DNA from: Halichondria panicea
Taxonomy: Eukaryota > Porifera > Demospongiae > Suberitida > Halichondriidae
NCBI RefSeq assembly: GCF_963675165.1
Contig: NC_087383.1
Location: 5,372,839-5,436,838 of the forward strand
DNA length: 64,000 nucleotides
Reading direction: 5' to 3'
Within the stretch, counting starts at the first letter, position 1, and every line of letters starts with the position of its first letter. Positions 3,761 to 45,000 of the stretch are shown one piece after another. A program made the position numbers and the translations under genes. The notes below the pieces were generated by a model that had not been told where the DNA came from, searched no databases, and was given only the letters and a program-made list of their open reading frames with translations.

Positions 3761-6700
3761 CTATAAAATCTCTGAAAAGTTGCTGATTGCAGAGTTCCAA
3801 TCAGTACTATGAAGAGAACATACAGTAGAAGCACCACAATGAATATGTTGTTGCACAGCCAACTTTGCCCAGTATACCTGCATAGGATGTAACATACACA
3901 TCTTCCAATATACATTGGTTATGGTGCTTGGGTTACAATTATATAAAAAGTGTCTTATTACGGACCTCCTTGTTCCATCCCGCCTGTACAGCAGTATGTA
4001 CTTGAGTCTCATCAGTTCATCGTTTGACACTATAAAGTACTCTTCTGGTACTTTATTCTGTAGGTTGGGCTCATTACCACGCTGCACTTTTTTAGACCTG
4101 TGGCACATTTAGATAACACTCGTCGGTTGCACTAAGTAGTAGCAGAGATTGAAGAGAGAGGGATATGAAACTTTATGACGCAATCCGTGTTACCCAAAAT
4201 GGGCGTAGCACATTGTCTTTACTGCAAGTTCTATGTAAAATCATGTAAAATACTTTGTGGGACTGTATCTCTGGACTTGCTGCTACATATAGAAAAAAGT
4301 TGATATTTGAGTAAGTGCAAGAGCTCCTCAGCTAAAAGCCGAGAGACAGCTTGTTCGATCACTTCAACTTTTTTGACCTCTTGTACTTGTCCTGGAGCAA
4401 AATTTTGCAAATTGTACACTAAAAATCGATTATACTTTCAGCATCAGAGCGATCTAGCCTTTGAGACAGGCACCAGCACATAGAATACATTAATCTTGTG
4501 AAAACCAACTTGCTTTCTGCTACAGTCCCACAAATGCTAGTATAGCCAATATCTAGGGTTTTGGATTTTATTGCCACCAAACAATCTGTGGCTAGTCAAT
4601 TATTATGATCATAATTCTTCAAGTGAGTCATCCAGCTTCCTGTGGGCCTGTTTTGTTTTATTTACCGCCATTTTTATAGCAAGGCGGAGAGCCTAAACTT
4701 TTTACTCTGTTTTACATTGAGCACACAATAAGCTCACGTGATCTAGTTTTATATCCCCTTCTCTTCAATCTCTGGTAGTTCTGTATGTCAAGATGACTTG
4801 ACACATTTTAATTTCACTATGCATACTCTCGCTACATGCATGTATGTGTACATGCACACTCACAGCACTGTAGGGTGTTTTACAACTTCACAGATAGCCA
4901 CACAACTGGCCCTGTGTGGTAAACAGCTGTTTGGCCAGAGAGGGCCACTGGGACTCCAGTTTAAACACACACCCAACTCTGTGGACAGGTAAGTACCTTC
5001 ACCAAATGCTGACACCTGGAGTGTAATAATAACACTCAATGTTGCAAGCTGCATTGCATGTGCTAATACCTCTCGGCATGTTCTACTTCGCTCAAAAATA
5101 ATATTATATAGAAGAGGTAAAATTAGCAATTGTTGACAATGAACGAATTATTGACATTATACAGATTGATGAATGATTTTCTAGAACAAGTAGGGTTTAC
5201 CATACCCCCAAAACAATGTGTTTAATAGGGTGGCATAGACCTACACTATCAACATTATTTACAAAAGGGGAGGGGTTTGACTGGGTATTGGGTGTAGCCA
5301 GAGGAGGAATGCCAGGGTCAAAAGGTCACTAATTAAAACACCACGTGGCCCCCCCTTAGTTTATACACCACCAATAGTTTATAATCACAACAGAAATCGG
5401 TTGAGCTATTGCGCCCCAGAGGAATCAGCTTAAGAGGAGATCCACAATTTAATTGCAACCTTTGACCTTTTATTGCATTCTTCAAAACCACAAGATATGG
5501 AAATTAGCCTTCCGTGGCTAGGGAATAAATTTTGATGTACGTACTGGCTTGTTCTAGATAGATCTAGCTTTCCAAGCAAAGAACAGAAGCGCTAAGCTGC
5601 TATATGCAGCAAAGGTCAAGAACCCAGAACAAGAATGTTTAATCCTTCATTAAGACCCTATTGACTCTGGCATTCCTCCTCTGGGGTGTAGCTGGGTTGG
5701 GTTATCAAAGGGGTAAGATCAGTGTGGTGAGAGCTTGGTGCAAGTGAATTGGGCGACGTAGCGGAGAGAAATTTGTGTGAGAATCATTCGGCAGGTAAAT
5801 GGGCACTTACATTATTAAGTTATCGTCAAGTGACCTTATCTGGGAGTTACGATCACTGAAGGGGTTGTCGCACATCTCGCCAATTAGGCTATAAATAAAC
5901 GCACATTTCTACCCATCCGACCCTCTCCTTTCTGTACAAAGCACTAGACTACTGTAGCTGTGTGTGACATCAACCAACCGCACCGTTTGTGGTTGCATGA
6001 GTAATAGTTAGTCACTTTGTAGATAATATTTTTGTGATTGCTGCTTGTACTGTAGCTTCATTTGTGAGTAAAATATTCGTAGTCAGAGCTCCAAATACCA
6101 GCTTATATATCATAGGTACACAAGCATTCTGTGTACCTTCACGACAATCAAGATTATACTCGATACTCACCATCAGAACCTATAGGTTAAGTGCTGGAGA
6201 GGTATTTGAGAAGCATGCATTGGACATAATACGTTTCCCGGGTTTTCACGGGAAGTTTCAGAACAAAACACGGAATGGCTTCAGAGCCGTAGACTTTAAT
6301 GTAAAAGCATGACGTCAACCACTTCCGTTGCCAATCCCTCTCTTCTACTGCCTTTCCTACTTTGTTTTGTCCTTATGTGCATTTTGTTGTCTTTTGACCG
6401 ATCAAAGGAATAGCAGTGCCAGTGTATGGCTTAACAGTGGCGGATCCAGGAAAAATGAAAGGTAGGTTCCAAAGTAACGAGCGCGCAGCGCGCAATTTTT
6501 TTTGTGGGTACGCTCACTTCCAGTCACACATGACTAGGCCATGTTGCAAATTCAATGTAAAATGTCACGTGACGCCTCTCCCTATTCAATCTATGGTACA
6601 ACAAACCTACACAGCTCTGTCTCTAGCTAGCTAGCTCCGCGTATGATTTTTAGGATATTTTCTCTGATGAATTCAGTATTATAGGAAATTTTACGGGAAA

Positions 6701-9700
6701 AATATTCAATAATTTTGCGCATGCGCAAGCAGTTGATAGTCTTTTCTATGAAGGCCGGTGAAAGAGGCTAAGGCTAACCTGAACACTCCTTTGGCAGTTG
6801 ATACATCAAAACAACAGGTACAGACTTTACAGCCTGTGCGTAAAATTGTGATATAAAAACAAAGTATAATGTTTGTGACAAAGGCTAGCTGACAGACTAA
6901 TTGTGCCGCATTGTGCAACACAGCTGAATATAAATATACAATTACATGACTGTGGAGCTATGAATATCTGTTGCATGGGCACATTAAGTGGTAAGTACAT
7001 GGGTTGTCAGGAGGGTATTCTTGATTAAAGTTAGTGGTGCGCTGATATCCGTGGTAAGTATCAAGTTCCATAACCTTGCAACACGATTGAGGTACGTGTA
7101 CTTGCGCTGTAGCATCTGGCTTTGACAGTGAGTGTATTGTTGCAACTGAAGCGGGTGCGACCGACTAGTAACACATTTTATGTGGTCTCTTACGTAGTTG
7201 TCCGATGGTTCAGAAAATTATGTAGTGTAGTTTCAATTTGGACAGTCTCGATTTGTACGAGCTTGAATAATCGTTAAGGATGAATGTGGTGGAGCAGAGG
7301 AGGCTGGAACCACTTGACCTTAGCTAATTAAGGTCACTAATTGGATTTATCCAAACTTCTCTTGCAGACTACTTCAAGCCTAGTTTTTAGTGTCACAGTT
7401 TAAAACGTTCTTTTTCAGGGGGGGTCAAATTTTATTTTCGCCAATTTTGCTCAGAAGCAGAGATACAAGTCTCAAAGCCAGCTATGCAGTGGCCTCGAGA
7501 ACAAGCCGCTCATAATATCAAGGCTAGTGCAAGAGCAAGACTTTTGATTGTATCTCTGCTTCTGAGCAAAATTGGCGAAAATAAAAAATGACCCCCCCCC
7601 CCCCCTGCAAAATAACGTTTTAAACTGTTTAAACTGATAGACACTAAAAACTAGGCTTGAAGTAGTCTGCAAGAGAAGTTTGGATAAATCCAATTAGTGA
7701 CCTTAATTAGCTAAGGTCAAGTGGTTCCAGCCTCCTCTGGTGGTGGAGGATCTCCTTTGGATTCTCTTCAGTTTTTGAATGTCCTTGATCAAATTTGGTC
7801 TCGGGAGCAGTAGGTGACCTGGGATCGAACTAGGGTTATGTATATCTACTTCTTTGGTTAAGAGCTCGGTAGGCCTTAGATGATAAAATTATGAGGTCAT
7901 AATGCAGTGGTTGCTGGCTGTGCACAAGTAGGTATTTTTCTTGTGTAGCAAAGTTGAGGTGAGAATTGTAGTCTTGGTGCCAGTTCATATTCCATGTACA
8001 TGTAGCGCACCAGGATGACAACTGGTTGATGTCCTTGTTGGTATTCGGTAGAAGTGATGCACTACAGTGGCGGATGTAGGATTCTTGTCAGGGGGATTCC
8101 AGTGGCAAGGCAAGGCTCAAGTGGGAAGGACTCTGCATTTTACCTAAAAAAGGTCGTCACTTCTATGGAACAGTCAGCATGCGCACTACAACATTAGATT
8201 TTGCCTAAAAAAAGGTCAGCACTCCTTAGCATGTAGCCTTTGTGACTACAAAACAGAGCTTCGCAGGACTTAGGAAAACTGTGTTGGAATAATAAATCTA
8301 AAATAAAGATCATAAAATTCGAGACGAGAAATCTTGAAATCCAGCTATATAGCAATCAAGGACCAGCTAGCCTTCTAAGACAAAAAAAAACACTCTCGAA
8401 ATCCAGCTAGAAATTGCGATTTTTAACATCTCGTACGCTAAAAAGACCTGCAAACAGTGCAGCTCAAAATGAAATCCGAGATGAGAAGTCTTGAAATTCA
8501 GCTGGCAATCAACCTTCCAAAGACAAGAACAAACGAAATCCAGCTGGAAATTTTAATTTCACATCTCTGTACGCTGCCCATAAACAGTGCAGCTTAATTT
8601 GCAGCTCTTTTCTCACTCTTGCATCTCTGCAAGAGTGTGAGAACTAATAGCTAGCGTTCCAGGGCTAACTACTATAAATGTTGAGGTAGCAATTAACACT
8701 ATGAAGAAGTTTTGCTACGCATGCACTATATTCTAAAAAGGCATTCCAACTAGAACAAAATAATTATTATGAGCCTTTTTGTACTATGTATATAGCTAGA
8801 AGCTTTCACCTGCACTTCATTGATCACTGAGCTACAGTTACACAGACACGCAAATAAACTACCGAACTTACTTTTTGCTGTTTTCGTGGGTTAGCAATCA
8901 TACACAAAAAACTACAAAAATTGTTGTTTATTTAAAATTATCTGCTATAGGCATGGCTTCCAGTAAATCACGAAAAATTATTCCATCAAATTCTTTTAGA
9001 GGCCAATTTGAAAATTTCGGGCTATACAATTATAATTGTTATAAAATCAGTACGGAAACAATTAGAGGCACACCTTATTGAGTATGTTTAATAGCCCATT
9101 GTGAACAATAGAGTGGAAATTCTCCAGAGAGCTGCCATGAAAAGCAAAAAATACTCCATGACTTCCAACAACAGACTGAAAGTTGGTCTCTACCTCTTTA
9201 CTGTAGACAACTTCAAACACATACTGTGGCTTAGTTGACGGGGCTCTAGTGATGGGTAGCTTGGACTGCGAGAGAATGTGATCTATCTGTATAGGGAAGT
9301 GAGGATAAAAGTACACTCTTACCATTTCATTCCTCAAGTACATGGGCAACAAAGAGTGCAGGGGTACACTATTTGGTTCCTACATTATATGGGGCCCAAA
9401 GAGTGTGCTTGTGTCTGCACGTACAGTAGCGGTCAAAAAAGTACCCGTTCCGTTTACGTAGTATGTCCGTAGTACGCTGGTACGTTGCAAAATAAATGCT
9501 AAAAATACGCTCAAGATAGGTTTTGTACCGTTGCGTTTTTTTTTTTAATCAACCGTTGTTAAATTTTTCCTTCGGCCACACCCATGCAACTCTGTACGCA
9601 GCTAGCTAGCTAGAACTTTTACAGCAGTTAGCTGTTAGATATTATAGCTAGCTACATAGCGTTTTCTAACCTTGTAGAACAGAGATAGGACTCTATAGAC

Positions 9701-11799
9701 ATCCTTTTTGATGAGAAGGTTAATTAAAGAACTTGTGAATGGTGCGTTTTATGTCTTTGTTGTAGATCTAGAGCTAGACTTACAGCTAGACATAGCCATA
9801 GCATAGCTAAGTAGCTAGACTAGCTACAATACTCGAGATGACTAGGATTATATCTTTGTTCGTTTTCTAAAACTTTTCTGCAAAACGTACTTGCAAAGTG
9901 TAACGGTAATTAGCAACGGTACGGTAAATTCAACGCTTTTGATACGGTGTCAAAACGGAAACGCTTCGAACGTACTACGGACGTACTACGTAAACGGAAC
10001 GGGTACTTTATTTTGACCGCTACTGTATATAGGGAACAAATAGTGTAGTTGATAGTCTTACAAACAATTTTGAGTGCTTAAAAGTGTCATTATCATACTG
10101 GCCGGGTAACACGATAATACCCTAGCATAAGATACATCTGTCTATAAAATAGGCAGCCACTATACAGCTGCATGTTCACAAAGAGTCGTGTACAACGTTG
10201 CATGTACTAGCTAGCTGTGGAAGAGTCACTAGGTACGGAGCTCGAGGAAGAGTCCGATCACAGCAGTGGACCCGGTCCGGTGGTTTAGAAGTGTGAAGGG
10301 TCAAAGATGGCAGTGTGATCACTGCCAAAGTGTTGCGCAGCTCTACTGTAGGGATAGCCTCCTTCACAAGGCCATCTTCAGTGCGGCCTGGAATCGAGGC
10401 TACTGTAGGGATTGCCAGTGCAGCTACTGCCCAGCGTTAACGGTTAGCGCATGCGCAAGCAGTCTATACCAGGCCCACTTTTGGAGGAAGTGCAGCATGT
10501 CAATCCGTAGAAACTGGATTATTAGCGCATGCGCTTTTAGGGTCAATAGCAAGCAGAGCTCTATACGCTTATATTCAAGAATGCGCCTATAATGCAATCA
10601 TTTTGAGCCCCACCCAGCAACCGGATGTCTCTGTGATCAGAGGAGGTACGACAGGCGCAGTGCAGCTTAGGCAATTAGCCTTTGATTGAACAATAATTAT
10701 CCGCCCACGCCCCGCCCACGTCGTATGTTTTTGATGTGAGTAATCAGAGGCTAATTACTTTAGCTGCACCGCGCCTGTCGTACCTCCTCTGCTCTGTGAT
10801 GAGAGCTGACTCGCAAGCTGGCTAGAAAGTGAGCAAGCAAGGCAAGCAGGCAACCCTAACTGGATATATATCATACTATTATGTTACAGTTCATTTAAAT
10901 TCATATTATAAAAACATTCCAGGAACTTGACCTCATCCATGTCTCACATTCTCTCAGCATGATCAGACAAGGTAACAGCATGCCCAGAGGGTCCTTACAG
11001 ATGGATATCACCAGCTATAACTAGTGTTCAAGCTGGCGCTGTGCTAATGCCTCTCGCCATGTTTTTGCTTTCGCTCAAAAGTATTAGAGTGTTGTATTAG
11101 TTTCTATAATGAATTTTATATTAAAGTTAGCTTATCTATATAAAGTCACTGGGAAGAAAAGACTTATTTACATGCATCTATTGTTGTTATTTATTGTATT
11201 ATGTGGCTTACCAGGACCTCAAGAAAGAAGAAAATTGATTCTTCCAGGATCTGTAGTTCAGTGTATATAATATCTAGACCTGTGTACATGCATATTGTTA
11301 TCTTTATTGTTATTATGGTAGTGTTTTGTGGCTTACCAGGCCCTCAAGACAAAGATGATTCTGCCAGGAGGATCTGGATCTTGGATATTATTTTCTCACA
11401 GGGGGAATTAGTGCGCATGCGCATTACATCCACAGGAATAATTAAAGGGTGTGTCCAAAGAGATCAATTTCACAAATGGCTACTGCTAGCTAGCTGGTTT
11501 AACAGATATTTTCTGAGTATTGTAGCTAACAAAAAGCTAGCGCTTTAGTGCAAGGCTAACTCATATGTTGAATAGAAAGTTTGTGCGGACAGATGATGCT
11601 ATGAAAGATTCTGAAGAGACTGTAACAGCCTTCAATGTGAGTCAAACTAGCCATAACTCGAGAAAGAAGCTTTAGTTCGCTAATCCATGAATCAAAATTC
11701 AAGAGAACGTGGCTAGAAGCCTATAGAAGCTGTTAGCTTTCGTCGCATTGCAACCGTTGAGCAGTTACAGCTGGAACAGACACACAGACACACAGACAG

Positions 11800-11832
<33 letters not shown>

Positions 11833-13718
11833 GCTTTACCGTATCCCTCCTGCGGCTACGCCTCGAGGCATAATTATAGCTATCATGCACTGTACAAGCT
11901 AACTAGTAGTTGGGCGGAGCCCGACCGTCCCTGACGGGAAGTCGGGTTTCAAGCCTATGTCAGGATTTGTCTTGTTGAATTACAGCAGAGATACAAAAGA
12001 AAGGGGATTGGAAACGAAATTTTTACGAAATTTTTGCGTGAAGCATTCCGCGTTATAGGGCGTGGCTAAAACTACAAAGAATTATATTTATAGTCAGCAT
12101 GCTCATTACCTGTCTTGACTGCTCTACAATGTGCTGTACATAGAAACAGTGAAATTTATCATTTTTAATGTTGAAAGTAAAGAGAATTTAGCTCTAAAAA
12201 GTCGACTAAGCCATGCAGCCACTATTACTAGACAAATAAATGCTATGCAAGAAGAAATAGCCTTTACTATGAAGTCGTAGGAGGGACAGGCCCGTGGTGT
12301 GTCTAAAAGTATACTAAAGCAGTTTGAAGGACTATACTGCCAACGTTTATGAACAGTACAGCTTATTTATAGCATGAAGCCATTCTATGTAGCACTTAGA
12401 TACATAATAACCAAGTCAGCAATGTCCTTTGCTGTTTTGACTTCACAGGAGGGACAGAGAAAAGTTGACATAGAGTAATTCAAGCTAAACTCAAAAAAAT
12501 TGGAAACAGAGTAAAGACAACGGACTTAGAGCTTGTCAGTGGTATAAGCTTACTTCTCTCAAGTATCTCCCAGGCCCTGAGTGATCTCTAGTGGATAGGA
12601 GAGCTAGAAACCAGGGATACAAAACCGTAGCGCAGTCCTCCATGTAATTATTTGCGAGCGCAATAATTACACGGAGTGCTTCACCGGATGTCAGTCCTTT
12701 TACATAGGGCGTGGGCGGTCGTTTCCAATCCCCTTTCTTTTGTATCTCTGATTATGTAACACGCTGATAAGCAGCTATGAATAATCATTTTATTCTATAA
12801 ATATTATTATTCTGAAGTGGGTGTTAACCAATTTTATCTTGCTTGAGGTTGCGCAACCGGACGTGACACAGACCACAGTAGAAATGCTGCAATCTGATTG
12901 GGCTGCAACTATAGTTGCAGCAAAGACAAATCCTGACATTGGCTTGAAACCCTACCTCCCGTCAGGGACGGTCCTAGCTCATAGATAAACAAAATTAGCT
13001 GAATCAATTTTAAAATTTCACTAATAACCTTCGCATAATTGGAAAAGCGCTTCAATTCGAGTATAAAAAGCCTGCAGTTGAGCATGCGCTTAAAATAAAG
13101 ATACGCTTATAATCGAGTAAGCGCTAATAATCCAGTTTCTACGGTAGCAGGCCTTCTCTTCAATGGGAGGCCCAACTCCCCTCTGCGCACGGAAAACATG
13201 AATGCATCAAAAAGCGGGCTTATTTGTTTATGACAAATAATGAAAGCATCGCAGGTGCTGATGCCTCGGTGGAGGTGCCAAAAACTACATAACATAAAGC
13301 TACTAAATTAATAGCTTTTATATACATGATGAACATTTTTGCATTAATTAATTTTGCTGCACGCAAACTCAGAGTGGGTAATGATCGACTATGATTGTTG
13401 TTAAAAACGATCGATACCAAAAGTTCAAGTCTAAAATTAATGGCTGCATCAGCAGAGCCTTGCAAGCTCTCTTCTCACTTTTGCAGGTACCAATAGCTAG
13501 CGTTCTAGTGCAGAGCTAACTACTATACAAGTAGAGTAGCAACACTCGGTAAACAAGTTGGCTACGTGCTCTTTTCAAAAGGCTGCAATATGGCATTCCA
13601 AGTAAGCAAAACTAGGCATAACTCGAGAATGAAGCATTATTAATTTTTGCAAATCCACGAATTAAAATGACTAGAAGCCTATAGCTTTCAATTCATCATT
13701 GAGCAGCTGTAGCAGTCT

Positions 13719-13749
<31 letters not shown>

Positions 13750-16700
13750 ACTCGCTTGGGCATGCGCACCGAGGCACATGTACCACAGCTATAACAGTCA
13801 CACTTATTCTGCACTTTTCCCACGCCTATGTCCAAAATACACCATGCAGCACGCAAGCAGCACAAATGCTAAACAAATGCCAGATATGTGCAAGATGTAA
13901 GTGCACGTGTGTTGCTGATATGTGCTGCATGCGTGCTGCTCATATTGCATTTTTGTAAGGGAATTAATTGTCAGCTAAATTGAGCTGTAAGGTTTCTCTC
14001 TTGAACGCTGCAATCTGATTGGGCTGCAAGTTTTTTGCAGTTGGAACAAAAACGCGTGGGCGGCCACGGGATAGTCCGTTGGTTTGTTTGTTTGTTTGTC
14101 GCGAGTATATCTACTCACCTGGATGCCATAGCGCTGCATAGATAGCCTTCACTCAACAATATCTCGCTTTAAATAGTGACAGATTTCGATGTTTGTCGAA
14201 CAAAAGCTAAGAAGCTTAAACAAGCTTGTGACTGGGTCTGCTTACCTGGATGTTCTAGCACTGCGTTTACAGCATGGGTAGTCTCCACACAACAAGTTAG
14301 TACTTTCGGTCTAAATGAAAGCGAGCAAAATGTAGCTTGAACAGAACTTGTGAACTGGGTTATTTACGTGATCCTGTACCAGGAACAATGGAACACGGTC
14401 ACTAAAGTAGAAAGCTAGAATTATCTAGCTCCTGCTGACTAAGTATTTGTACCAGAATACCGTATAGCGGGTAATTTTCGGGGGACAAAATATTCGTGGT
14501 TCAGCTATATTGAGACATTTCGTGGGTAAATGTTCGTGGTTGAGCTTGCACTGCAGTCTGCAGGTAAAGGTAGGTAAGGTCGCTTCATTCGTGGGTAAAA
14601 TATTTGTGGTCAGACCTCCAACCACGAAAACCACAAATATTTTGCCCCACGAAAATTACCCGCTATACCAGTAGTAGAAAGCTAAAATTGTGACTGGTTG
14701 TTGGCTGACTCTGGATCCTATACTCCAGTCTGGCAGGAGCCATATCTCTAAGTCTAAGACTCCAGGCTTCTTAGCTGAATCAGTAGAAAGCTAAAATTGT
14801 GACTGGTTGTTGGCTGACTCTGGATCCTATACTCCAGTCTGGCAGGAGCCATATCTCTAAGTCTAAGACTCCAGGCTTCTTTGCTGAATCCTGTGATCCC
14901 AGTCCACAGTGCATGTCTCATGTGACATGTACATGTACGTACCACTCAATGTTTCAGCAGATTCCAGTCTGGTTTATTACCCGAGGCGCGCGTGGGCAGC
15001 CACGGGTATAGTAGTCTGTTGGTTTGTTTGTTTGTGATAGCCTTTTCTACTCACCTGGATGCTACAGCACTGCGTTTACGGGTAGCCTTCATACAACAAT
15101 ATCGTTTAAATAGTGGCAGATTTTGATTAAAGCTTCTTTGTCGAGCAAAAGCTAAGAAGCTTGCATTTGCACGTTGGCAGCCAGCTAGCTACAGGTGGCC
15201 TTGACAATGTACATTTGTATTTGCAGCTGAAGTGATCCGTACCAGGAACAATTGAATAAGAATTTTGGTTGTGACTCACTCTGGCTGACTTTGGATCCTA
15301 CTCCAGCCGGCCTGGCAGGAGCCATACTTCTCTAAGTCTAAGATTTCTTAGGAGGCGGCTGATCCATAAGACTAGCATGCTACATGCACTGCAATAATAT
15401 TGCAATATTATAATTATATCACTCCTCTGCATGGTTTCTTTATTATCATGTCACCAGCCGAGGGTTTGCACTTTAGTGCTCTGGTTTGTTTGTTTGTGAT
15501 GCCTATTCTACTCACCATAGCACTGCGTTTATAGCATGAATAGCCTCACACAATGAGATCTTGATTTAAATAGTGGCAGATTTTGATGTTAATTAAAGCT
15601 TCGTTGTTGAATAAAAGCTAAGAAGCTTGTACTTGCACGTTGGTAGCTATTATAGCTAGCTATAACTACACGCAGCCTTTATTCGAGGTCAAATACGTAT
15701 TACAGCTGCTGAAGCGATCCGGCACCAGAAACAATGGAAAAGGGTCACTAAAGTATCACTAAAGTAGAAAGCTAGAATTATGTTTTATGGCTGTTGCTTC
15801 TTTATTTATTTCTGCCCCAGAGCATACAGTCAGACTTCGATTTAAGGCGACCCTTCAAATATGCGACACCCAGGAGCTTCAGCAAATTTCTGACCTCTAA
15901 AAATAGTGACAGCTGCGTTGGCAATTATTTTTTAATGTCGTGTTCTAAATAGAAGTAAATGTAGCCACTCCCTAGCCTCGATTGTAGCTCACTAGAAAAT
16001 CTAAGCAGCCTATAATCGAGGCAAGTAGACTCTGTAAAGTTACTTCTAATTAGATGCGACCCTCTAAATATGCGACACCAGGACTTTAATAAAATTTTTC
16101 AACCTCCAAAAGAAGCGACCTCTGGCTTCGTAATTATTAAAAAGTGTTGCTTTAAATCGAGGTCTTACAGTACCCCACAGCTAGGAGCTATATCAAACTA
16201 AGACTCGAAGCTTCTTTGCTGCTTTTGCAAGTTGCTGTGATTCTAGTCTACAATCTAATCCACAATGCATATACTACTAAAACTCCAATCTCGACATCAT
16301 ACAAGCCTCTAGCTCCTGTTACTTGCTGCTTATAGCCAGCATTGTATAACACTCTTTCGGTTGCTATACATGCACCTGTAGATCATGCCAACAGTCGAGG
16401 GTTAGCACTTCGGTGCTCTAGTTGTAGAAGAGGACCTGCCGAAGTTTTAACGAGTACCGTATTACTAGAATATTTGCTGGTGAAAAACCTTCAAATCAGC
16501 AGGAAATTTAACCCTTTGCGTACTACATGTATTGTGTTCTGGCAAGGATCGTGTGTATTAATTAATTTACTAGTAATAATTTAGGTTTTGCGGATTTTAT
16601 TGTTCCAAATAATATTGATCAACCATTGCAAAGTTTGCAAATGTTTGATGCTCGCAAAACGGTATTTTACATTTTCTGTAAATAATTAAAAAAGGGGTGT

Positions 16701-17600
16701 ATCTGCAATATGGCAACCATCAGGAGACCCTTCATCTTGTGCAAGTGATAAAAAAATTTCTCAGTTGATCGTGCTCTGTCATGCCCTAAGCCCAGAGGCA
16801 CCTCTTACTGACTACACCGCTGTCACATTAATAGTAGGGTTTTATTAGGGGGGTGAGTACTTCTCCCTTTGGGATTTATAACTATACACGGCCTTAATAG
16901 AAAGTTAGCACTTCCTTCCTTCCGGCAACTCCAGACTACTGTAAGATAATAATAGTGTTGCAAGCGTGCGCTTGCTAATGCCTCTCGCCATGTTTTTGCT
17001 TTCGCTCAGAGTGTACGTTATAGAAGAAGTAAATAATTTGTTCGCAAGAAACGGGTGTCCACAGTTAATAGTGAATACTGATAGTCTTAAATGGCCTGTA
17101 ACCAAACAGTGGGAGCAAACCTTTGTCAAAGGCATAGTCAGTAGTCTGTGAGAAAAGTATTAAAGACAGAATTCAATCACAGAAAGATAACAAGCAGTCT
17201 AAAAAGAGTTAATCAGAAAAGGTTGGTTTGTGGCTTACTAGGACCTCAACAAGAAGAAAATCAGGATCTGGGGTTCAAAATGGATTCTCTTACACGTGGT
17301 ATTGAGCGCGCATGCGAATAAAGGGTGTGTCTGCAAGTTTACAAAAATTAATAATGGCTACTAAAATAGCTAGCTTCTCTAGCAGCTCTTTCTGACTCTT
17401 GTCAATTGACTAGAAAGTTTGTGCGAACAGATGATGCTACGAAAGATTCTGAAGAGACTGCAACAGCCTTCAATGTGAGTCAAACTAGCCATAACTCGAG
17501 AAAGAAGCTTTAGTTTGCTAATCCACAAATCAAAATCCAAGCTTACAGAAGCTGTTAGTTTTCGTCGCATTGCAACCATTGAGCAGTTACAGCTGGAGCA

Positions 17601-17636
<36 letters not shown>

Positions 17637-19270
17637 AGAGGAGGTTGGACACGATCACGTGCGCCACTTTTTTTGCTGAGCTGGCACAAAAATTGACAAT
17701 GACTTCTATGTAAACTTCTAGCTGATGTTGCACGGTCATTAGAGACTGAAGGCAAACTTTATGTGCCACCTGGCTTCTTTTAATATAAAACTTTCATTAT
17801 AACCAACCCGATCCCCACCGATCCCCTCTATTCTGGCGAGTTATCAGTGCATACAGTGTTTACTAGATTCTTGCCAGCCAGTACAATGCAAGCTGCATAC
17901 AGCACCGCTGAACTATACTCTACCCTATAGTCTAGCTAATCTTGGTCCAGCCAGACAACAGGTACAGCTAGTCCGGTGTTACAAGTCAGCAAAGCAAGAA
18001 TATCCATAACTTTTTTATTACAGTTATTCGGTATCTATGGTAACGTGAGCAGAGACCTTAGGAATGTCACATGATTGATGACGCGTGGCCAACCTCCTCT
18101 GCACACACACACACACAGTCAGCTACACGTTACCGTATCCCTCGTGCGGCTACGTCTCGAGGCATAATTAAGGAGACACAATAATACCCATAAGTAGCTT
18201 TTTTACGTTGCAAAATGAACGGTGAAGACCTGGTACAGTATAATATTTAGATAGGTTGCATCTAATTGGAGGTACAAATGTAGCTCCATATAATTATACA
18301 TGTACATGTAGTTAACATGCCTCGATTCAAGTCGCTTAAAAACATGTACATGTATTTAACAGTTAGTGGGCTAGAATCGAGGCTAGGTTGTGGGTACATT
18401 AACCATAATTATTTAGGACGCGACATTAAAAAATATTTGTTAACGCAATTGTCGCTACTTTTAGATAGAAATTTTCCTAAGTTCACAGGTGTTGCATAGT
18501 AATTTGGAGGGTCGCCTTAGATAAAGACATTACTGTAAGTTGTACTACTAACAGCTAGTACAGTACATGTACTTTAACCAGGATGATTTCACTCACAGTT
18601 GAAATTGGTTTGTAACAAAGAGTGAAAGCCTTTGGTGTGATAACCCACTGCAACAGATCAGTTTGACGTGCAGTCATAGCTGCATTCTTATCCAAAATCT
18701 TGTGAATAGAGGGAAGAGTATTGAACACCGTCCTCTGAGTGTGCAAAATAATTATTATAACATTATAGCTACATGTACATACATGTAGTTTTTCATGTAC
18801 ATTTATATATACAGTCATGCATAATTGTATGATAGTGGCTGGAGAGTGCATGTACAGCAATTAATACCATACCACATCCGACTCTCATTTACCTCAATTT
18901 AAGACAAGACATTAATTATGACGCGTGGCCAACCTCCCCTGGGTCTGGCAACAGTGTGCACGTGGAGTTGTCCCAGTGGAATTTTTTATGGCGCTGTAAT
19001 TACATTGTACATCAATTATGGTAACAATCACAACAACAAATTAATCAGCGAGAAACTGCGTACCATTTCATCAATCTGCTTGTCCTCATCCTCCCTGTAC
19101 ATTGGTGGGTAAGGTCTCAGCAGGGTGTCATGGCGATAGCTGCTCATGGCCGCCCAGAATAGACTTAAAAGAAAATCACATCCCAGTTGGTTGCTTCTTA
19201 ATTTAGTGTAGAGGGTGTCTTGTGTATAATTTGATGGCTCAGATTGTTCTGTTGGGTAGATTTTTGACAT
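3761..19270 (-). CDS. PARP16: PARP16 orthologue, mono-ADP-ribosyltransferase (3' end unresolved)
   Basis: PARP16 is an ER tail-anchored mono-ADP-ribosyltransferase linked to the unfolded-protein response. Exons on the minus strand are 19270-19064, 18734-18597, 9265-9074, 5015-4864 and 4097 downward; phases 0, 0, 0 and 2 agree at every junction. The N-terminal helical region (residues 1-115) carries a SYRHDTLLRPYPP block resembling human PARP16. The catalytic fold shows FFAFHGS (His157), FGEGTYLS (Tyr188) and RLKYILLY (Tyr263), so the PARP16-type H-Y-Y triad is intact, predicting mono- rather than poly-ADP-ribosylation. After Tyr263 the last exon either splices (weak donors near 3966 or 3962) or reads on to a stop at 3761; the read-through tail is not hydrophobic, so the family's C-terminal anchor is not found next to it. 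Introns 2 (9.3 kb) and 3 (4.1 kb) hold most of the repeats listed here. Identity is inferred from remembered family sequence. Confidence 0.88.
4143..4774. mobile_element. MITE with CAGAGATTGAAGAG inverted ends
   Basis: Left end CAGAGATTGAAGAGAGAGGG and right end CCCCTTCTCTTCAATCTCTG are inverted copies, 632 bp apart. The inner end sequence (GATTGAAGAG-GGGAT) is related to the CATAGAT family below. The flanks share only GTAGT, so the target duplication is not clear. It lies in PARP16 intron 4, between the exons at 4097 and 4864. Confidence 0.65.
5299..5683. mobile_element. CAGAGGA-family MITE, 9-bp TSD (copy 1)
   Basis: The ends CAGAGGAGGAATGCCAG and CTGGCATTCCTCCTCTG are perfect inverted repeats. 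The element is flanked by the direct repeat GGGTGTAGC at 5290-5298 and 5684-5692, an exact 9-bp target-site duplication. Length 385 bp, no coding capacity. It sits in PARP16 intron 3. Confidence 0.88.
7295..7739. mobile_element. CAGAGGA-family foldback element, 9-bp TSD (copy 2)
   Basis: Almost the whole 445-bp element is one inverted repeat: arms of roughly 200 bp run from CAGAGGAGGCTGGAACCAC inward and reappear reversed up to 7739. A C/G-homopolymer segment lies near the centre on each side. It is flanked by GTGGTGGAG at 7286-7294 and 7740-7748, an exact 9-bp duplication. The transcript would fold into a long hairpin inside PARP16 intron 3. Confidence 0.88.
9424..10025. mobile_element. TA-flanked MITE with long CAGTAGCGGTC inverted repeats
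   Basis: Both ends carry an inverted repeat of about 55 bp (CAGTAGCGGTCAAAA, then GTACCCGTTCCGTTTACG, then GTAGTACG). The 602-bp element is flanked by TA on each side (9422-9423 and 10026-10027), as for Tc1/mariner-type integration. No transposase frame is present. It lies in PARP16 intron 2, close to the catalytic exon at 9265. Confidence 0.85.
10638..10791. mobile_element. CAGAGGA-family short MITE, 9-bp TSD (copy 3)
   Basis: The 154-bp element has inverted ends CAGAGGAGGTACGACAGGCG / CGCCTGTCGTACCTCCTCTG and is flanked by CTCTGTGAT at 10629-10637 and 10792-10800, an exact 9-bp duplication. It is the smallest member here and the clearest definition of the family's ends. Confidence 0.9.
11030..11880 (+). 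mobile_element. CA-microsatellite-bearing interspersed element, full-length-like copy
   Basis: The copy begins near GTGCTAATGCCTCTCGCCAT, passes a conserved GTTGAGCAGTTACAGCTGGA block, carries a CACACA run at about 11790-11828, and ends CTCGAGGCATAATTA. The same order of blocks recurs at 16955-18172 and 36118-36665. No terminal inverted repeats or transposase are visible; a SINE-like or other non-autonomous origin is possible. Confidence 0.65.
11923..12973. mobile_element. Outer MITE with GACCGTCCCTGACGGGA ends, interrupted by a second element
   Basis: Left end GACCGTCCCTGACGGGAAG and the block GGTTTCAAGCC...GTCAGGATTTGTCTT reappear inverted at 12919-12973. The outer element is split by the MITE at 11986-12750, which must therefore be the younger insertion. 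The outer arms flanking it are about 60 and 220 bp. Confidence 0.78.
11986..12750. mobile_element. Inner MITE (GGGGATTGGAAACG family), nested
   Basis: The inverted ends read CAGAGATACAAAAGAAAGG then GGATTGGAAACG on the left and their complement on the right. The internal sequence (GGGCGTGGCTAAAACTAC..., GTCAGCATGCTCATTACCTG) is shared along its length with the element at 32450-33200. Flanks are ATTACAG and ATTATGT, only partly alike. No coding capacity. Confidence 0.8.
13190..13770 (+). repeat. Truncated copy of the CA-microsatellite element
   Basis: Contains the shared GCAGGTGCTGATGCCTCGG and TGGAGGTGCC start block, the GAGCAGCTGTAGCAGTCTAC block, a CACACA run at 13720-13740 and the end GCGCACCGAGGCA. 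Located in PARP16 intron 2. Related truncated copies lie at about 28440-28880, 48289-48757, 3460-3705 and, on the minus strand, 24060-24300 and 30238-30560. Confidence 0.6.
14460..14669. mobile_element. Palindromic MITE, CCGTATAGCGGGTAATTTTCG ends
   Basis: A 210-bp near-palindrome: CCGTATAGCGGGTAATTTTC at the left and GAAAATTACCCGCTATAC at the right, next to TA. Relatives are at 25546-25743 and 63291-63463, with single ends near 29157 and 46395. Confidence 0.8.
14673..14888 (+). repeat. 108-bp tandem duplication
   Basis: The block beginning AGTAGAAAGCTAAAATTGTG at 14673 is repeated from 14781 with almost no differences, through GACTCCAGGCTTCTT and GCTGAATC. It lies inside the Helitron-like unit. 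The high identity suggests a recent duplication. Confidence 0.9.
15828..16172. mobile_element. MITE with CAGACTTCGATTTAAGG ends
   Basis: The left end CAGTCAGACTTCGATTTAAG is matched in inverse by TTTAAATCGAGGTCTTACAG at the right. Inner copies of CAAATATGCGACACC occur twice. It sits inside the third Helitron-like unit. Confidence 0.6.
16456..16673. mobile_element. MITE, TACCGTATTACTAGAATATT family
   Basis: The same sequence, in the opposite orientation, is found at about 25842-26063 in KHDC4 intron 5 (shared blocks GATGCTCGCAAAAC, CTGGCAAGGATCGTGTGTAT). The ends pair as ACCGTATTACTAGAATATTT and a reversed GCAAAACGGTA. Confidence 0.65.
16955..18172 (+). mobile_element. CA-microsatellite element interrupted by a CAGAGGA MITE
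   Basis: Carries the TGCTAATGCCTCTCGCCATG start block, GAGCAGTTACAGCTGGAGCA, a CACACA run up to 17635, and resumes at 18102 with CACACACA and the end CTCGAGGCATAATTA. The MITE at 17636-18101 is inserted in the microsatellite, so this copy was there first. Confidence 0.75.
17636..18101. mobile_element. CAGAGGA-family MITE inside a CA repeat (copy 4)
   Basis: Left end CAGAGGAGGTTGGACACGA, right end CGTGGCCAACCTCCTCTG. The flanks are CACACACAC on both sides, as expected for a 9-bp duplication, although the microsatellite makes this non-diagnostic on its own. A lone right end of the same type (CGTGGCCAACCTCCCCTG) lies near 18925-18942. Confidence 0.8.
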
Positions 19271-25500: not shown

Positions 25501-28500
25501 TATCATGTCACCAGCCGAGGGTTTGCACTTTAGTGCTCTAGTTTACCATATAGCTGGTAATTTTCGTGAGGTAAAATATTCGTTATTTTCGTGGCAAGCT
25601 GACCTCCACAAAATTTTAACATAGGCGTGGCTTACCGGAATACAGTGCAAGGCAATGAGACGAAATGAAATTTTTACTCACGAAAACCACCGTTTCTCGA
25701 GTTGAACAAATTTTTTACCCCACGAAACTTACCCACTATACGGTAAAGTATAAGGAGTAATGGTCAAGTTGTCGATAGTTTCGCGGTACTGTATGTACTG
25801 TGCTGAATTATTACGTAGATTCGTGATTGCTTATAAAGTACCGTATTACTAAAATGTTTTGCGAGCATCAAACATTTGCAGACTTTGCGATGGTTGATCA
25901 ATAATATTCGCAACAATAAAATCCGCAAAACCTAAATTTTTACTAGTAAATACACACGATCCTTGCCAGAACGTAATAGTTAGATGCAAAGGATCAAATT
26001 TTCTGCTGATTAATTTGGCTCATTCGCAAAACTTTTTCACCTGCAAAATATTCTAGTAATAATTATGGTGTATGTCTAGCATGCTAAAGTTCCTGCATGC
26101 TTTTTTAAATTAAGTTACATTGTATATGATTATATGCACTATAATTTATAATATCTTCTTTTATATTCTTTCGTACAATTTAGGTGGGCCAGCACTAGTT
26201 AATCCCTACTCCCTGCAAGCACCAAATTACCATGGATATCGGGCTCCACCCCCTCCTCATGACAGTTTTTATCATCATCCAGCTCCACAAGGTAGTCTTG
26301 CCTTAATTGAGTAACGCATAATTATTGGTTTATGGTACTCAGAGTTATTCACTGCTAAGAAGAGTTTGAAGTGAGCTAATTAGTGGCTAGAACTAGCAGG
26401 CCTAGGCTGAACTAAATTAACTAGTTCATATCTCTATGATATCAGCGAGTTTCTAAGATTCTACGGTAACTTTTCTCTTTTAACGGAGGCAAGACTGGCG
26501 GAGGTTATAATACCTTGAAAACTCAAAGATTGAGCTAACTAGTACAGACCTAGCACCAGCTAGCTGTAGTCATTTAATTACTTCAAACCTTTCTTAGCAG
26601 TGAGTATAGCTCTGGTAAAAATAATTATGTGAACTTAATCATCTTCTGTACTATAAAATTATATGGTAAACAGCCAAGGGTTAGTACTGCAGTGCCCTGA
26701 GTGTGTACACACACGGTACAGTGTAGTACGTACTACATGTACATGTATGTTGCCTCCAAATAGTGTGGTTTAAATCATGAACTTCATGTATTCTCTACGT
26801 ATTTCCTTCTTTGGGTATTATAAGTGCATGCATAGCCTCGCAAAGAATAATAATTATACCAATCTTGAAAATGCGCTCAGTCCCCTAGTTTCTCATGCCT
26901 AAATTTCTTACAGAAAATGGTGGGCATGTTTTCAATGGAGAGAGATTGGTGCACAATTTTTACAATGATTAACCTTTGTTAGCTCATGCAGGTCATCACC
27001 CATACAACTATCCTGGTCCACTCCCAGGAGGCTACTATGCTCCCGAACAGCCTCCCTACCCGTACTGCCATCCACCACCTCCACAGGATGTAAATGCTGG
27101 ACTACCAAATGCTTTCGTAGATTACAGGTACGTATACATGTACAATGCATGGTACTACTGTCCTACTCAACTATTTTGTATCCTAAGCTAACAACAGGTA
27201 CCACTAGAGCACTGAAGTGCTAATTACCCTCGGCTGTTTACTCAATAAATAATAGTATGTATGAAGAAGCATGAAAGCTGGCTAAGTGACAAGTAACATG
27301 AGCAATGAAATTCCATCGTTCCTGGTACAAAATCACTTCAGCTGTAAATACGTACTTGTACCTCAAGAAAAGGACGCATGTAAAAGCTAGAGGCCAACGT
27401 ACAAGTTCAAGCTTCTTAGCTTTTGCTCGCTTTTATATGACAACAAAGCTTTAATTAACATCGAAACCTGCTATTTTTAAAACTAATAACTGTTGTGTGA
27501 AGGCTATATCCATGCTGTAAAGGCAGTGGTATGGCATCCAGGTGAGCAGGCTCATAAATTACGAACAGACAGACAAACCAACTAAAGTGCAAACCCTCGG
27601 CAGGTGACATGATAATAAAGAAACCAGAAGAGTGATATAATTATAATGCAGTGCATGTATCATGACTGACTAGCATAGTATTAAACTCAAGAGCAATAAA
27701 ACTAAACTAACAACGTACATGCATGAGTCCAAGGTCTCTATGGGATTATGAGACCCCGAGGTCCCAAGGTAGTAGTGCCCCTGACACGGATTTTTATAGA
27801 TTGTTAATGTTAACTGGTCCATTTCCTCAGACCTTTCGACAAAGTTGATGTCGCCAATGCCGATGTCCAAGTCAAAAGAGGTTTCACAGAAGAGGTAATA
27901 GTTATCTTAAATGTTAATGCAACCCGCTTTTTAATGTGGCCACAGATCATTTCTAATGAGTATTCTAGTGACCCTCAGAGTTCTAAATAAGTTTCTCTTT
28001 ATGATAATGCATGAGTGTTGTTGTATGGCTCCTAGGTGTACACTATATTTTTAGATGGAGTTTAGTACATCTGCTGTTATCATTCAGCCTTTCTTTCTTT
28101 GTTAGAGGTACCGTACTCCACCGAGATTACGCCCACGTCTGAAATTACGCCTACCCGCACCATTGAGTGAAAGTTTCTGCATAGACTGATTTTCCTCGAG
28201 AATACGCCCACCAGGAAGTGATGCATTTGTCAAGTGAGCAGTTTTCAAGAAAAGGTTGAGCAGTTTCTTGCGTACGCTGTTTAGCTCTGAATATAGCTAG
28301 ATATAGCTAGATCTTATTTGCAAGTATAAGAGACAAGGACAATCTTCTCTGAATCTCTGTTGAAGACTCTGCCAGAGTCTTCAACAGAGATTCAGAGTCT
28401 CTGGCAGTGACAAGAAACAGCCTTCTGATGTAGTAGATGAAAGCACCACTGGTGCTGATGCCTCGGTGGAGGTGCCAAAGCTACATACAACCTACCAATA

Positions 28501-32151: not shown

Positions 32152-33476
32152 TAGAATAGAAGAGTTAGAGGGATAGGAAACAGAGTGGTGCACGTGATGA
32201 TTTTACATTGAATCTGCAGTGGAGCCTCTAAAATTATCCGCGTTACGAGGCTATTAAGCACATTAATTTTTTGCAGGGTAACTCCCAAAGTAGCCTCGAC
32301 TCTAGCCCCTTGAATAGTGGCTCAGCGGCTTGGAATCGAGGCTACTCCCAAAGCTGTGTTTCCTCGAGACATCATCTCTTTCAGCAATAATATTTATAAC
32401 ACGCCTAGTCCATGCGCCACGTGTAGTACTTACTAATGACTGACCATACCATAGATTGAAATGGAATTAGGGGATTGGAAACGAAAATTTTTGCGTGAAA
32501 CAGTTATAGGGCGTGGCTAAAACTACAAAGGGATTATTTTATAGTCAGCATGCTCATTACCTGTCTAGTCTGCCATACAATGTGCTGTACATAGAAATGG
32601 TGAAATTGATAATTTTTAATGTTGAATATTCTAAAAAGTATAGAGAATATAGCTCTAAAAGATCGACTAAGCAACGCAACCACTATCACTAAACAAATAA
32701 ATGCTATAAAAGAAGGAATAGCCCTTACTATGAAGTCGTGAGAGGTCAAGGCCCGTGGTGTGTCTAAAAGTATACTAAAGCAGTTTGAAGGACTATACTG
32801 CAAACGTTTATGAACAGTAAAGCTTATCCATGGCATGAAACCATTCTATATAGTACTTAGATACATAATAACCAAGTCAAGCAATGTCTTTTGCTGTTTA
32901 GGCTTCGCAGCAGGGAAAAAGAAAAGTTGACATGCTATACTCAACAAAAACTAAAAACAGAGTAAAGACAGCGGACTTAGACAAGTTAGAGCTTGTCAGT
33001 GGTGTAAACTTACTTCTCTAGAGTAACCTCCCAGCCTCTGAGTGATCGCTAGTGGATAGGAGAGCTAGAAACAGTTGAAATACAACCAGAGTACGGTCAA
33101 AACAAAAATAATCGCGAGCGCGAAATCATAACGCGGAGTGTTTCAACCATTTACACAGGGAGGCCTGGTCGTTTCCAATCCCCTTCCTTTTCAATCTATG
33201 ACCATACCCAGTAAAAAGAGACTTTCCATATTATGTTCCCATGCAAGGCTGTTTTAGCTATTGGAACATTATAACGTGTAAGCGTGCTGGTTATGACTAC
33301 TACAATAGGTATAGACCTTGAATGAGTTGCACGGACTAAGCACAGTTACTTGTAGTTTATTATGCACTGAGTGTAGAAATAGATATTGTTGTGATGGCCT
33401 CGATTAAACCGCAGTGTAGCGCGGATGTTACTCGAGATACCAACCGTTTCCTATCCCTCTAACTCTTCAATCTATG
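32152..33476. mobile_element. CATAGAT-family element, outer copy with nested insertion
   Basis: Left end ATAGAATAGAAGAGTTAGAG then GGATAGGAAAC; right end GTTTCCTATCCCTCTAACTC then TTCAATCTATG. The element is interrupted at 32450-33200. The uninterrupted order of its inner blocks (CACGTGATGATTTTACATTG, GCCACGTGTAGTACTT, AGTAAAAAG) is seen in the related copy 42695-43741. The first few bases of the left end appear to be lost. Confidence 0.75.
32450..33200. mobile_element. CATAGAT-ended inner MITE with 7-bp TSD
   Basis: Ends CATAGATTG / CAATCTATG, then AGGGGATTGGAAACG inside. It is flanked by ACCATAC at 32443-32449 and 33201-33207. The related uninterrupted site in 42695-43741 reads GACCACACCCAGT, which confirms that one copy is a duplication. 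Body shared with 11986-12750. Confidence 0.85.
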
Positions 33477-33482
33477 GTTATA

Positions 33483-38268: not shown

Positions 38269-38279
38269 TCTTTTATACA
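38269..38279 (-). promoter_or_regulatory. TATA box for the secreted cysteine-rich gene
   Basis: On the minus strand this reads TGTATAAAAG, a near-consensus TATA element about 100 bp upstream of the ATG at 38169. A start of transcription some 30 bp downstream, near 38240, would give a short 5' leader. The other gene starts in this window (AGGF1, PUS10, PARP16, KHDC4) show no comparable element, which fits regulated rather than housekeeping expression. Confidence 0.55.
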
Positions 38280-39003
38280 TTTTGCTGCAAGGCTAGAGGG
38301 TGGGGCTAATAATTATTATTGTGGCCACTTATTCACCACGACAACAACGGTATGGCTGTTGATCTTTGTCAGTTATTTCCATGCCATGCCATAATTATAA
38401 TTATGTATCTTACAAACATGCAGCCTGGCTTGTTTATGTACTCGTATATTATATTTTACAGGACTTTACAACAGGTACAACAGGACAGTACATGACATGC
38501 CATATTATATTTTTGCATCCCATGATCGCAAACCAAGATAGCCACAATTTTTGCGGAGGATTGGCTAGGCCACAATTAATAAGATTACAATGGCACCACA
38601 TTAGTCCCATGCACAGGTGTCACAATACCACCACATTTGCACGTAATTAACCCCACCACTTGCCTTTGATTCAATTAGGAATTACGGTATTAGTGACAGA
38701 AAATTGCATCTGTTAAAACGAATCAAGCAAATAAACTAATTACAAAGTGGTAAAATAAGCGTTTGATGCTGTTTTACAATCACCCTAAAAAATGTGAATT
38801 CCACCCACACAAATAATTATACGTACTCGTACAAGTCTCTATGATTATCTTGTTATAAGAGACTACTACTTGACATGCATTATAATTATACACCTGCAGC
38901 ATGACTTGGTATGTGTACGCCAATAAAAAATGTTCATGAACTATACATAATGTGTACATCTATTCAATGAACATACGTGCATATAATTATGGTGAAATAC
39001 AAT
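38280..39003. other. Intergenic DNA upstream of the cysteine-rich gene
   Basis: AT-rich DNA between the TATA box of the cysteine-rich gene and the 3' end of AGGF1. I see no gene or clear element; any AGGF1 3' UTR would lie at its right edge. Confidence 0.4.
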
Positions 39004-42000: not shown

Positions 42001-45000
42001 TTTATAGCAAAGGTACACTACAGTACTGGAATTCAATACAAGAACTCTTTCATTATACTATAGGCTAGCTTTATCAGCAAACATTGTAATCGAGTGCACG
42101 CACATGCACGTACATGTACATGTATAATAGCAGGATTGGTACGTTGTAGGCTAGGTGAGGGCATGGGCAGCACGTAATATAATAGTGTATCTATAGGTGT
42201 GTGGGGAGCTCCAAGGTGTGTCTCTAGAGACCTTTTAATTGTCTTGAATCAAAACATACACCATGAAGTGTGAAGTACGTGCAGTCTATTGTGAATTGAG
42301 CTTTGAGTAGGAGTCCCAAACAGTTTAGTGGGGTAAAAATTTAGCATATGTCTCAAAACAAAATCTCACACAATCGTCCTCCTACGTGTATGTATTGATT
42401 TATATGCATGTACTACAAAAGTCACGTATGTGTATAATAATTATATAGCTACAAACTGCATGTATATCAGTATAAGAGTCTTAGACTAGCTGCATGTTTT
42501 CATAAAAATTGTAACGAGGCACTAGTGCAGGTTATAATTATACGTAAAACAAGTAATAGCATATAAGGACAGGGTTACACATTCATGGCATTTAATTATG
42601 TGCATGCATGACTATCCAACCTTATTGGCTTAGTTTTAGCTAGCCAGACAACCTTTATAGAAGCATTATAAAATTATTGGGCTGGAAGTTTCACCATAGA
42701 TGAGGAAGAGGGATTGGTAAAGGAAGCAGTGCACATGATGATTTTACATTGAATCTGGAGTAAAGCCTCGAAAACTATCCGCGTTGCACCCTATAAACGA
42801 GGCTATTTTACCAGGTAACTCGCTCAAAATAAGAAAGTTGTGTTTCCTCGAGACATCATCTCTTTATAACATGCCCAGTCTGTGAGCCACGTGTCAGAGG
42901 AAGTGGGACATGTGTCCATAAGTCACATGGCAATGGAATGTGTGGCATACAATGTTTACGTTGGGCTCTTGACCTTTAACCTTTTCTTAGATTTCAGTGT
43001 TGTGCTCTCTAGCAAGCTCACATCACTTTCTAGCAATCTCCAACATTATAAACTGTTATGGGAGATGGCAGCTGATCTGAGTTAACCCTCTTAGACTGCT
43101 CTCCATAGCAGCCTATGTACAGTGAAAACCACTAGGTTTGATGGTGAATTTCAAGCTATTGAGCCGGGATCCCATGGGGATCGCTGATCCACAAGTTAGT
43201 ATCATCCTTTCACTACATGATAACTAAATTTTTAAGAATATGACCGTGGGATCGCTGCTGTTTTGGCTGCTTGAAGATCAACACTTTTCATGCACAAATC
43301 CTTGTCTAAATCTTTGCGGTTAAACGTGGATTGTTAATTATTGAGGCACACGTGATGCGTGTCCTACCTCCTCTGGCCACGTGTAGTACTTGCTAATGAC
43401 TGACCACACCCAGTAAAAAGGGACATTCCAGTAAAGTTATAAGCGTAACGCTGCATGCTATTTATAGTCTTGTATTGCTAAACGTGTAAGCCTGCTGGTT
43501 ACACATGTACCTGCTAAATAGGTATAGACATTTAACAGTTAATTGCCAGACTGAGCATATTATATTTGCTGGTTTAAATTATTATGCACTGTGTGTAGAA
43601 ATAGATCATCAGCTTGGCTAGCAGGGCCACGCCAATCTATACAGCTTTGGCTTGTTGACACAGCCTCGATTAAACCCTGGGTAAAGCGGATATTACTCGA
43701 GGGTACTTCCGTTACCAATCCCTCTTCCTCTTCTATCTATGATTTCACTCAGTAATCCCCTTATCCCTGCAATACTCGATGTACATGTATTGGTAGATGA
43801 AGTGCATGGATCTGACCTGTCAGCAGAGGAAGGCAGTGCATCAGGATAGTCTAAGTCAGGAAGATCAGAGCCGACAGTCACACGACTATAGTGTGTGAGT
43901 GTGTTCAAAATTCAAAAAGGGAGTGAAGTATAAACACGTGCATAATTATGTGTACTATAATAATAATTTTTATATTAATTATCATGTGGACATGATTGCA
44001 ATGCACAATTGCCACAATAACTATTACTTAGAGGCTTGTACAATCCCCATTGAAAACGCCGCGTTTAAACGAGTAATTGTACAACGTTTTTTGGAGCCTC
44101 AGACCAAATTAAGGTGGCAAATTTAAGATCAATTTGGTCTGGCCTTAAAATTGGCCTACCTCGTAATTAAATTATGCTATATGTAGCTGCAGAATTATAT
44201 CTAGCACTATACCTATATAATTATAATATAGTGTCATGTACATTATTTACTACAAGCTTTTAGTTTAGCATAAATGCCATTTAGTTATTGCAAGCTCAGC
44301 ACTTTAAGCTGCATCCATGGTCCCCGCTATAATTGAGGTTGCAACACGGACTGTCCGTGTGAAATAGTGCTAATTGCCTGCGTTTCCAACCCCCTTCCTC
44401 TACTATCTACGGTACTACGGTCAAACCTGTCCACATACTCTTCTATAAAACTCTCTCACCGTAGCTCTGCTCGGTCCTTGTAATGACCTTTTTCTTCAGG
44501 ACGTTCGCCAAACACATCTTTGACCTACGGGCACCGAGTTTGCATGTACACATTACACCAGGCTTTGCCACGAACAGTCAATACTGGCCGCTCTTATACA
44601 CCAATAAACACACACTAAAACGATAGAACAGAAGGCCAACATGTAACTTGCAAGTGGATGCCAACGTGTATAATCATCACATTTAAAAGCAGTACGTTAT
44701 TACTCGAAGTGCACACTGTACTAACACGCAATCCGTATTTCTTTTTGATTCTGTTGAGCTCTTTTCTCCGCTTCAGGTCCAAGCTCTCCTTCGTCTCTAT
44801 CTTTGCTGCCTCGACAGGTGGCAGGGGGTTGCCAGGGTCACAGCCGTCACATACCTCAAGGCCTATTGGTTGGGAGAGAGCCACATTATAATCTCAGACT
44901 GCAATTATGTATATGGACTTCCTCCAATGTTCACAAAAATAATCGTTTAGTTGCATAGTTGGCCTTTCAAATGAACGCTTCGTAAAGTTTATATAATTAT

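Follow-up and report, generated by a model that had tools for sequence, protein, structure and literature searches.

Five short inverted-repeat elements with common CAGAG termini and exact 9-bp target duplications in Halichondria panicea

A 64,000-nucleotide stretch of the Halichondria panicea genome (contig NC_087383.1, positions 5,372,839 to 5,436,838 of the forward strand; hereafter the window, with positions counted from its first letter) contains five short elements, E1 to E5, which have inverted-repeat ends in common and are each bounded by an exact direct repeat of 9 bp. A preliminary description of this DNA had placed five elements here, and its coordinates proved exact for all of them. 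The elements, together with their flanking duplications, are located as follows.

E1, 5290..5692, no strand assigned: element of 385 bp at 5299-5683, with 9-bp duplications GGGTGTAGC at 5290-5298 and 5684-5692
E2, 7286..7748, no strand assigned: element of 445 bp at 7295-7739, with duplications GTGGTGGAG at 7286-7294 and 7740-7748
E3, 10629..10800, no strand assigned: element of 154 bp at 10638-10791, with duplications CTCTGTGAT at 10629-10637 and 10792-10800
E4, 17627..18110, no strand assigned: element of 466 bp at 17636-18101, within a CA repeat, with duplication CACACACAC at 17627-17635 and 18102-18110
E5, 42886..43384, no strand assigned: element of 481 bp at 42895-43375, with duplications GCCACGTGT at 42886-42894 and 43376-43384

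The element lengths span 154-481 bp, and the end repeats range from about 18 bp in E4 and E5, through 27 bp in E1 (identity 25/27) and 50 bp in E3, to at least 100 bp in E2. E2 is a foldback over its full length, with the outer 100 bp identical between the two arms, and its folding as DNA yields -205.7 kcal/mol (z -35.4). E3 also folds back on itself, each arm measuring about 50 bp (folding z -10.9). The longest open frames inside E1, E2, E3, E4 and E5 are 56, 73, 39, 68 and 62 amino acids (aa), respectively. A Pfam scan of the eight open reading frames (ORFs) overlapping E2-E5 found no transposase match; seven of the eight were without any match up to E 1, and the ORF at 17382-17654, which lies mostly in the E4 flank, gave two sub-threshold matches, both non-transposase. 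Miniature inverted-repeat transposable elements (MITEs) have a size limit of under about 600 bp, and the structural features of this class are present in E1-E5: the elements are short, carry end repeats and a target duplication, and are without coding capacity. Each of the five is present in the window as a single full copy.

Reading inward, CAGAGGAGG is found at nine of the ten ends, and the tenth, the left end of E5, is CAGAGGAAG. The shared CAGAGGA termini noted earlier are real and extend further than had been described. All ten ends start with CAGAG and have a G at position 13. Positions 10-12 differ among the elements; both ends of each element match there in E1-E4, and the ends of E5 disagree at position 11. 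Within every element the end repeats continue beyond position 9, with 17 or 18 of 18 positions alike in E1-E4 (17/18 in E4) and 15 of 18 in E5.

Past about 16 nt the five elements are mostly dissimilar and form at least three groups. A blastn comparison between the elements (E 1e-3) gave a single link, between the left end of E4 and the right end of E5 (90% over 31 aligned positions), and E1 and E2 have the subterminal 13-mer AAGGTCACTAATT in common. When shared k-mers were counted against random windows, no length from 8 to 13 gave an excess (for example, 63 shared 8-mers versus a mean of 79, and one shared 13-mer versus 11.9, the control being inflated by the repeats of the window). Homogeneity along most of the element, as in one transposable-element family, was not found. 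As judged by these comparisons, E1-E5 are several small families with common ends: E2 and E3 are of foldback form, the only blastn link joins E4 to E5, and the 13-mer is found in E1 and E2. The preliminary description had proposed one family with diverse bodies; the diversity of the interiors holds, and "one family" is too strong. It should be mentioned that AAGGTCA, the top over-represented 7-mer (6 of 16 window copies in 1505 bp, uncorrected P 1.1e-6 with 7807 7-mers considered), was considered as a subterminal binding motif and set aside. It occurs in E1, E2 and E5 only and is a candidate at best, and the over-representation of CGATCCC (E4, E5) is nearly equal.

Exact 9-bp flanking repeats had been reported for four of the elements, the fifth being E4 in its CA repeat. 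Re-examination of the flanks finds an exact 9-bp duplication in all five, including E4, at five different targets. The E4 duplication is also readable as 7, 11 or 13 bp; it cannot be 8 or 10 bp, because a C abuts the element on both flanks and allows odd lengths only. With 9 bp in 5/5 and 8 bp in 0/5, the earlier exclusion of mariner (TA) and of the usual hAT duplication (8 bp) stands. The same cannot be said of the word "strict". In yeast, 60 insertions of the animal Mutator-like element (MULE) Muta1 comprised 39 with a 9-bp and 21 with an 8-bp duplication (PMC5225508), and a family with 65% of such 9-bp insertions would give 5/5 with a probability of about 0.12 (0.65^5); five elements are too few for the term.

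The expectation by chance was evaluated with several controls. Against an expectation of 5.93, the window contains CAGAGGA 21 times, a count that none of 100 shuffles attained; ten of the occurrences are element ends and the other 11 lie elsewhere. Pairing of CAGAGGAGG-like ends (≤2 mismatches, spacing 60-12000 bp) yielded 413 pairs, among which a 9-bp duplication with ≤1 mismatch was present in five, every one exact, and duplications of 6, 8, 10 or 12 bp in none. E4 is the one pair counted at each of 7, 11 and 13 bp; the lengths 4 and 5 bp have a single pair apiece, and one more pair, 16392-16778, has a 9-bp duplication with two mismatches.

A scan blind to the end sequence covered 5008 inverted-repeat pairs, with 100 offsets as the control and with duplications of fewer than three different letters set aside. 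Exact 9-bp duplications numbered five against a control mean of 0.01 (maximum 1), and the counts at 6, 7, 8 and 10 bp were 4, 3, 2 and 0 against 1.48, 0.5, 0.09 and 0. The 9-bp matches are E1, E2, E3, E5 and a different element at 32451-33199, also readable as 7 bp; E4 was excluded by the low-complexity (three-letter) rule. One of the two 8-bp matches lies inside the E2 foldback and the other coincides with a palindrome within different inverted arms. The small excesses at 7 and 8 bp are due in part to palindromic arms and to a second element family.

This second inverted-repeat family, represented at 32450-33200 and 56530-57429, has CATAGAT ends, a common inner end motif GGGATTGGAAAC and exact 7-bp duplications, ACCATAC at the first copy and ATTATAC at the second. 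At 32450-33200 a 9-bp reading is also available when one base is taken off the ends. At about 11986-12750 there is a related copy with CAGAGATACAAAAG ends whose flanks show no exact repeat, and fragments of ends occur near 1732, 4774, 43741 and 44409. A 51-nt inverted-repeat pair (94%) at 11923-12973 starts with GACCGTCCCTGACGGG and has the CAGAGATAC copy nested within; no clear target duplication was seen around it.

As an outside control, CAGAGGAGG...CCTCCTCTG pairs comparable in size to the elements were taken from viral contigs in three size ranges, giving 44 loci (13, 13 and 18), 30 of them distinct. None of the 44 has a 9-bp duplication at ≤1 mismatch, and one has a duplication with two mismatches; these pairs were therefore treated as chance and serve as the control. 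Between the two ends of a pair, 9 to 17 of 22 positions are identical. Since chance pairs thus reach the 17/22 end agreement of E4 and E5, it is the duplication that is decisive for these two elements. An enrichment of the target sites in CA/TG/AC/GT steps (four sites, P 0.02) is post hoc with n=4 and is not claimed.

Three further features of the window are related to E4.

11562..11856 (approximate), + strand: paralogue of the E4 insertion site without the element (empty site), found by alignment to the joined E4 flanks
17821..17972, - strand: internal 152-bp segment of E4, recurring at 1134-1291 in the opposite orientation (82% over 158 aligned positions)
18909..18941, + strand: solo right end like that of E4, with 21 of 22 terminal bases and CCCCTG for CCTCTG

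When the E4 flanks are joined minus one copy of the duplication, they align through 11562-11856, allowing for the length of the CA repeat. The exact joint is unreadable, since the site sits inside the repeat. An element-free paralogue of the flanks, with its joint lying in the repeat, is as expected for an insertion. The inner segment of E4 is possibly captured sequence: one frame is open in both it and the 1134-1291 copy, and their length difference is in frame. E4 was also considered as a Pack-type element and the assignment was rejected, as the coding evidence is weak (10 synonymous versus 13 non-synonymous codon changes). In the 12 kb upstream of the solo end, no left end carrying the matching 9-mer was found to pair with it.

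With their CAGAGGAGG ends, five exact 9-bp duplications, lack of transposase coding capacity and one paralogous empty site, we read E1-E5 as non-autonomous DNA transposons of the cut-and-paste kind and of MITE-like size, whose source would be a transposase of the MULE/Rehavkus type. We give this reading a probability of about 0.6, the source being its least sure part. The elements are ordinary in kind, and a Mutator-like source is our best guess from the 9-bp length, because MULE duplications measure 8-11 bp and animal MULE derivatives have similar structures and duplications. The range of 8-11 bp is that given in PMC6446971, and in our reading the MULE table there states 9 bp more often than any other length, for several groups that include animal ones. 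The duplications of E1-E5 (9 bp in 5/5, E4 being compatible) fall within this range. Rehavkus is described in the same source with a 9-bp duplication, end repeats of 26-400 bp and a PHD-finger transposase, and the 9 bp matches.

Two animal systems provide the closest structural comparisons. The derivatives of Muta1 from Aedes aegypti, as reported in PMC5225508, mostly share their end repeats only, have variable interiors and foldback-type ends, and are flanked by 8- or 9-bp duplications. They are likened to E1-E5 by structure and not by end sequence. The Muta1 end repeats are 145 bp long with tandem 12-bp units, in contrast to a common end of about 9-16 bp in E1-E5, and the Muta1 duplications mix 8 and 9 bp, whereas those of E1-E5 are 9 bp in 5/5. 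The MULE/foldback family Tm1 of root-knot nematodes comprises non-autonomous foldbacks of varied types, with 9 bp as the most common duplication and 8-10 bp in 45/53 according to PMC3169594; its outer motifs, CGGTTAA/CCTACCC, are unlike CAGAGGAGG.

Several observations weigh against a Mutator-like source. MULE end repeats are typically long, with 14-500 bp on record in PMC6446971; the repeats of about 18 bp in E4 and E5 are short for a MULE, even if 14 bp has been recorded, and they fall below the 26-400 bp of Rehavkus. A scan of 170 window ORFs, namely 20 ORFs and the 150 longest (≥66 aa) of 366 further ORFs of ≥50 aa after low-complexity filtering, gave no MULE domain, and no autonomous copy was seen within the window. 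The ends resemble those of hAT elements such as Tgf2. MULEs are also reported to be rare in animals, with a median number of 0 over 100 genomes in the survey of PMC8277862. The Mutator-like source put forward in the preliminary description fits the duplication length and is not supported by the CAGAGG ends or the ORF content; its observations are confirmed, and its interpretation is partly supported.

The alternative that survives best, though we consider it unlikely, is a source in another or an undescribed superfamily with a 9-bp stagger. No transposase can be linked to the ends, which favors this possibility, and Merlin elements are reported with 8- or 9-bp duplications (PMC8101967). The same report gives Merlin a conserved terminal GG, however, which is absent from E1-E5, where all ten ends start with CA. 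The case is otherwise an argument from absence, drawn from few superfamilies and from the window portion of the host genome. Exact matches to the repeats of the window numbered zero both in viral contigs and in genome contigs, the latter from genomes other than the host, and the E4/E5-type end likewise had no exact match in viral contigs. The CAGAGGAGG-ended group has no apparent description in the open-access literature among the matches listed by an exact-word search. A tentative variant, similarly improbable in our estimate, is a cut-and-paste lineage in which hAT-like CAGAG termini go together with a stagger of 9 bases. It would be an offshoot of hAT that moved from a stagger of 8 to one of 9, or else an undescribed superfamily with kinship to both hAT and Mutator. 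The hAT and Mutator transposases have part of their signature, C/DxxH, in common (PMC10045372).

Quite unlikely, in our judgment, is a source transposase of the hAT lineage proper with an unusual 9-bp stagger. The hAT end consensus is CAG/TAG-N-G, and a CAGAG start is found in many hAT elements; all ten ends of E1-E5 conform to it. Non-autonomous hAT members can have only their ends and subterminal repeats in common. In maize, Ds elements with common 11-bp ends have highly variable interiors (PMC3260210). Tgf2 starts with CAGAGGTG (PMC4890040) and so has its first six bases, CAGAGG, in common with the elements; its end sequence diverges past position 6. The window also holds a hAT dimerization-domain fragment at 2932-3282 (Pfam Dimer_Tnp_hAT, E 1.6e-08), and the 1134-1291 copy of the E4 internal segment lies upstream of it. 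On the other side, the duplications described in PMC4890040 are of 8 bp, a length found at none of the five elements, and the parity of the CA repeat at E4 excludes even lengths. The candidate ends around the hAT fragment, CAGTGCAA/TAGTGCAA at 846-4134, differ from CAGAGGAGG and are not linked to it, and the fragment was rejected as the source. They are the best of four candidate end pairs, with the 8-bp repeat AGTAGTAG in a simple-repeat stretch, and their assignment is tentative.

It is noted that the fragment is the last ORF of a broken hAT transposase at 1821-3282, the ORFs at 1821-2060 and 2386-2652 being hAT-related by eye only, with no Pfam match.

The weakest explanation, coincidence of chance inverted CAGAGGA pairs with chance direct repeats, can point to the shortness of CAGAGGA and to the 11 of 21 occurrences away from element ends, but the counts exclude it for practical purposes, with five exact 9-bp duplications where far below one is expected and end repeats that continue past position 9 within every element.

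Under the cut-and-paste reading, a DDE transposase from another part of the genome would recognize CAGAGGAGG and a looser inner stretch, excise the element, cut the target with a 9-base stagger and join the element to it; gap filling by host repair would then produce the 9-bp duplication. Because such recognition would require little beyond the ends, the interiors would be free to change, and may have drifted, been replaced, or turned into inverted duplications of one end, as in E2 and E3. The exact duplications and the identical outer arms of E2 suggest a fairly recent insertion, and no more than that. An active source elsewhere in the genome, which had been deduced from the diverse bodies, does not follow from them, because the Muta1 derivatives (PMC5225508) and the maize Ds elements (PMC3260210) are likewise reported with mixed bodies behind shared ends; the elements are evidence of past rather than present mobility.

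Elsewhere in the window, two perfect 44-nt inverted arms at 25390-27727, 2250 nt apart, belong to a wider repeat network recurring at 14-16 kb, 22-25 kb, 27 kb and 49 kb. Little-diverged tandem duplications are present at 14673-14890 (109 bp x2, 99% match) and 59210-59329 (59 bp x2, 98% match). An uninterrupted frame of 529 aa at 50390-51976 matches Pus10_C over its full length (E 2e-94) and Pus10_N_euk more weakly (E 2.8e-06), and is apparently a Pus10 pseudouridine synthase gene in one exon. Other ORFs match FHA, ARTD15_N, G-patch, OCRE and KHDC4/BBP KH models, and together with Pus10 we take them to indicate an animal genome. No match was obtained in the window with Rfam at gathering thresholds or with ARAGORN.

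The elements suggest that about 9-16 bp per end may suffice for mobilization. If the source proved hAT-like, its altered stagger would offer a natural experiment on the determinants of target-duplication length. If it is a MULE, one more animal-like genome would be known to carry non-autonomous elements of the Mutator-like group, whose rarity among animals is reported in PMC8277862.

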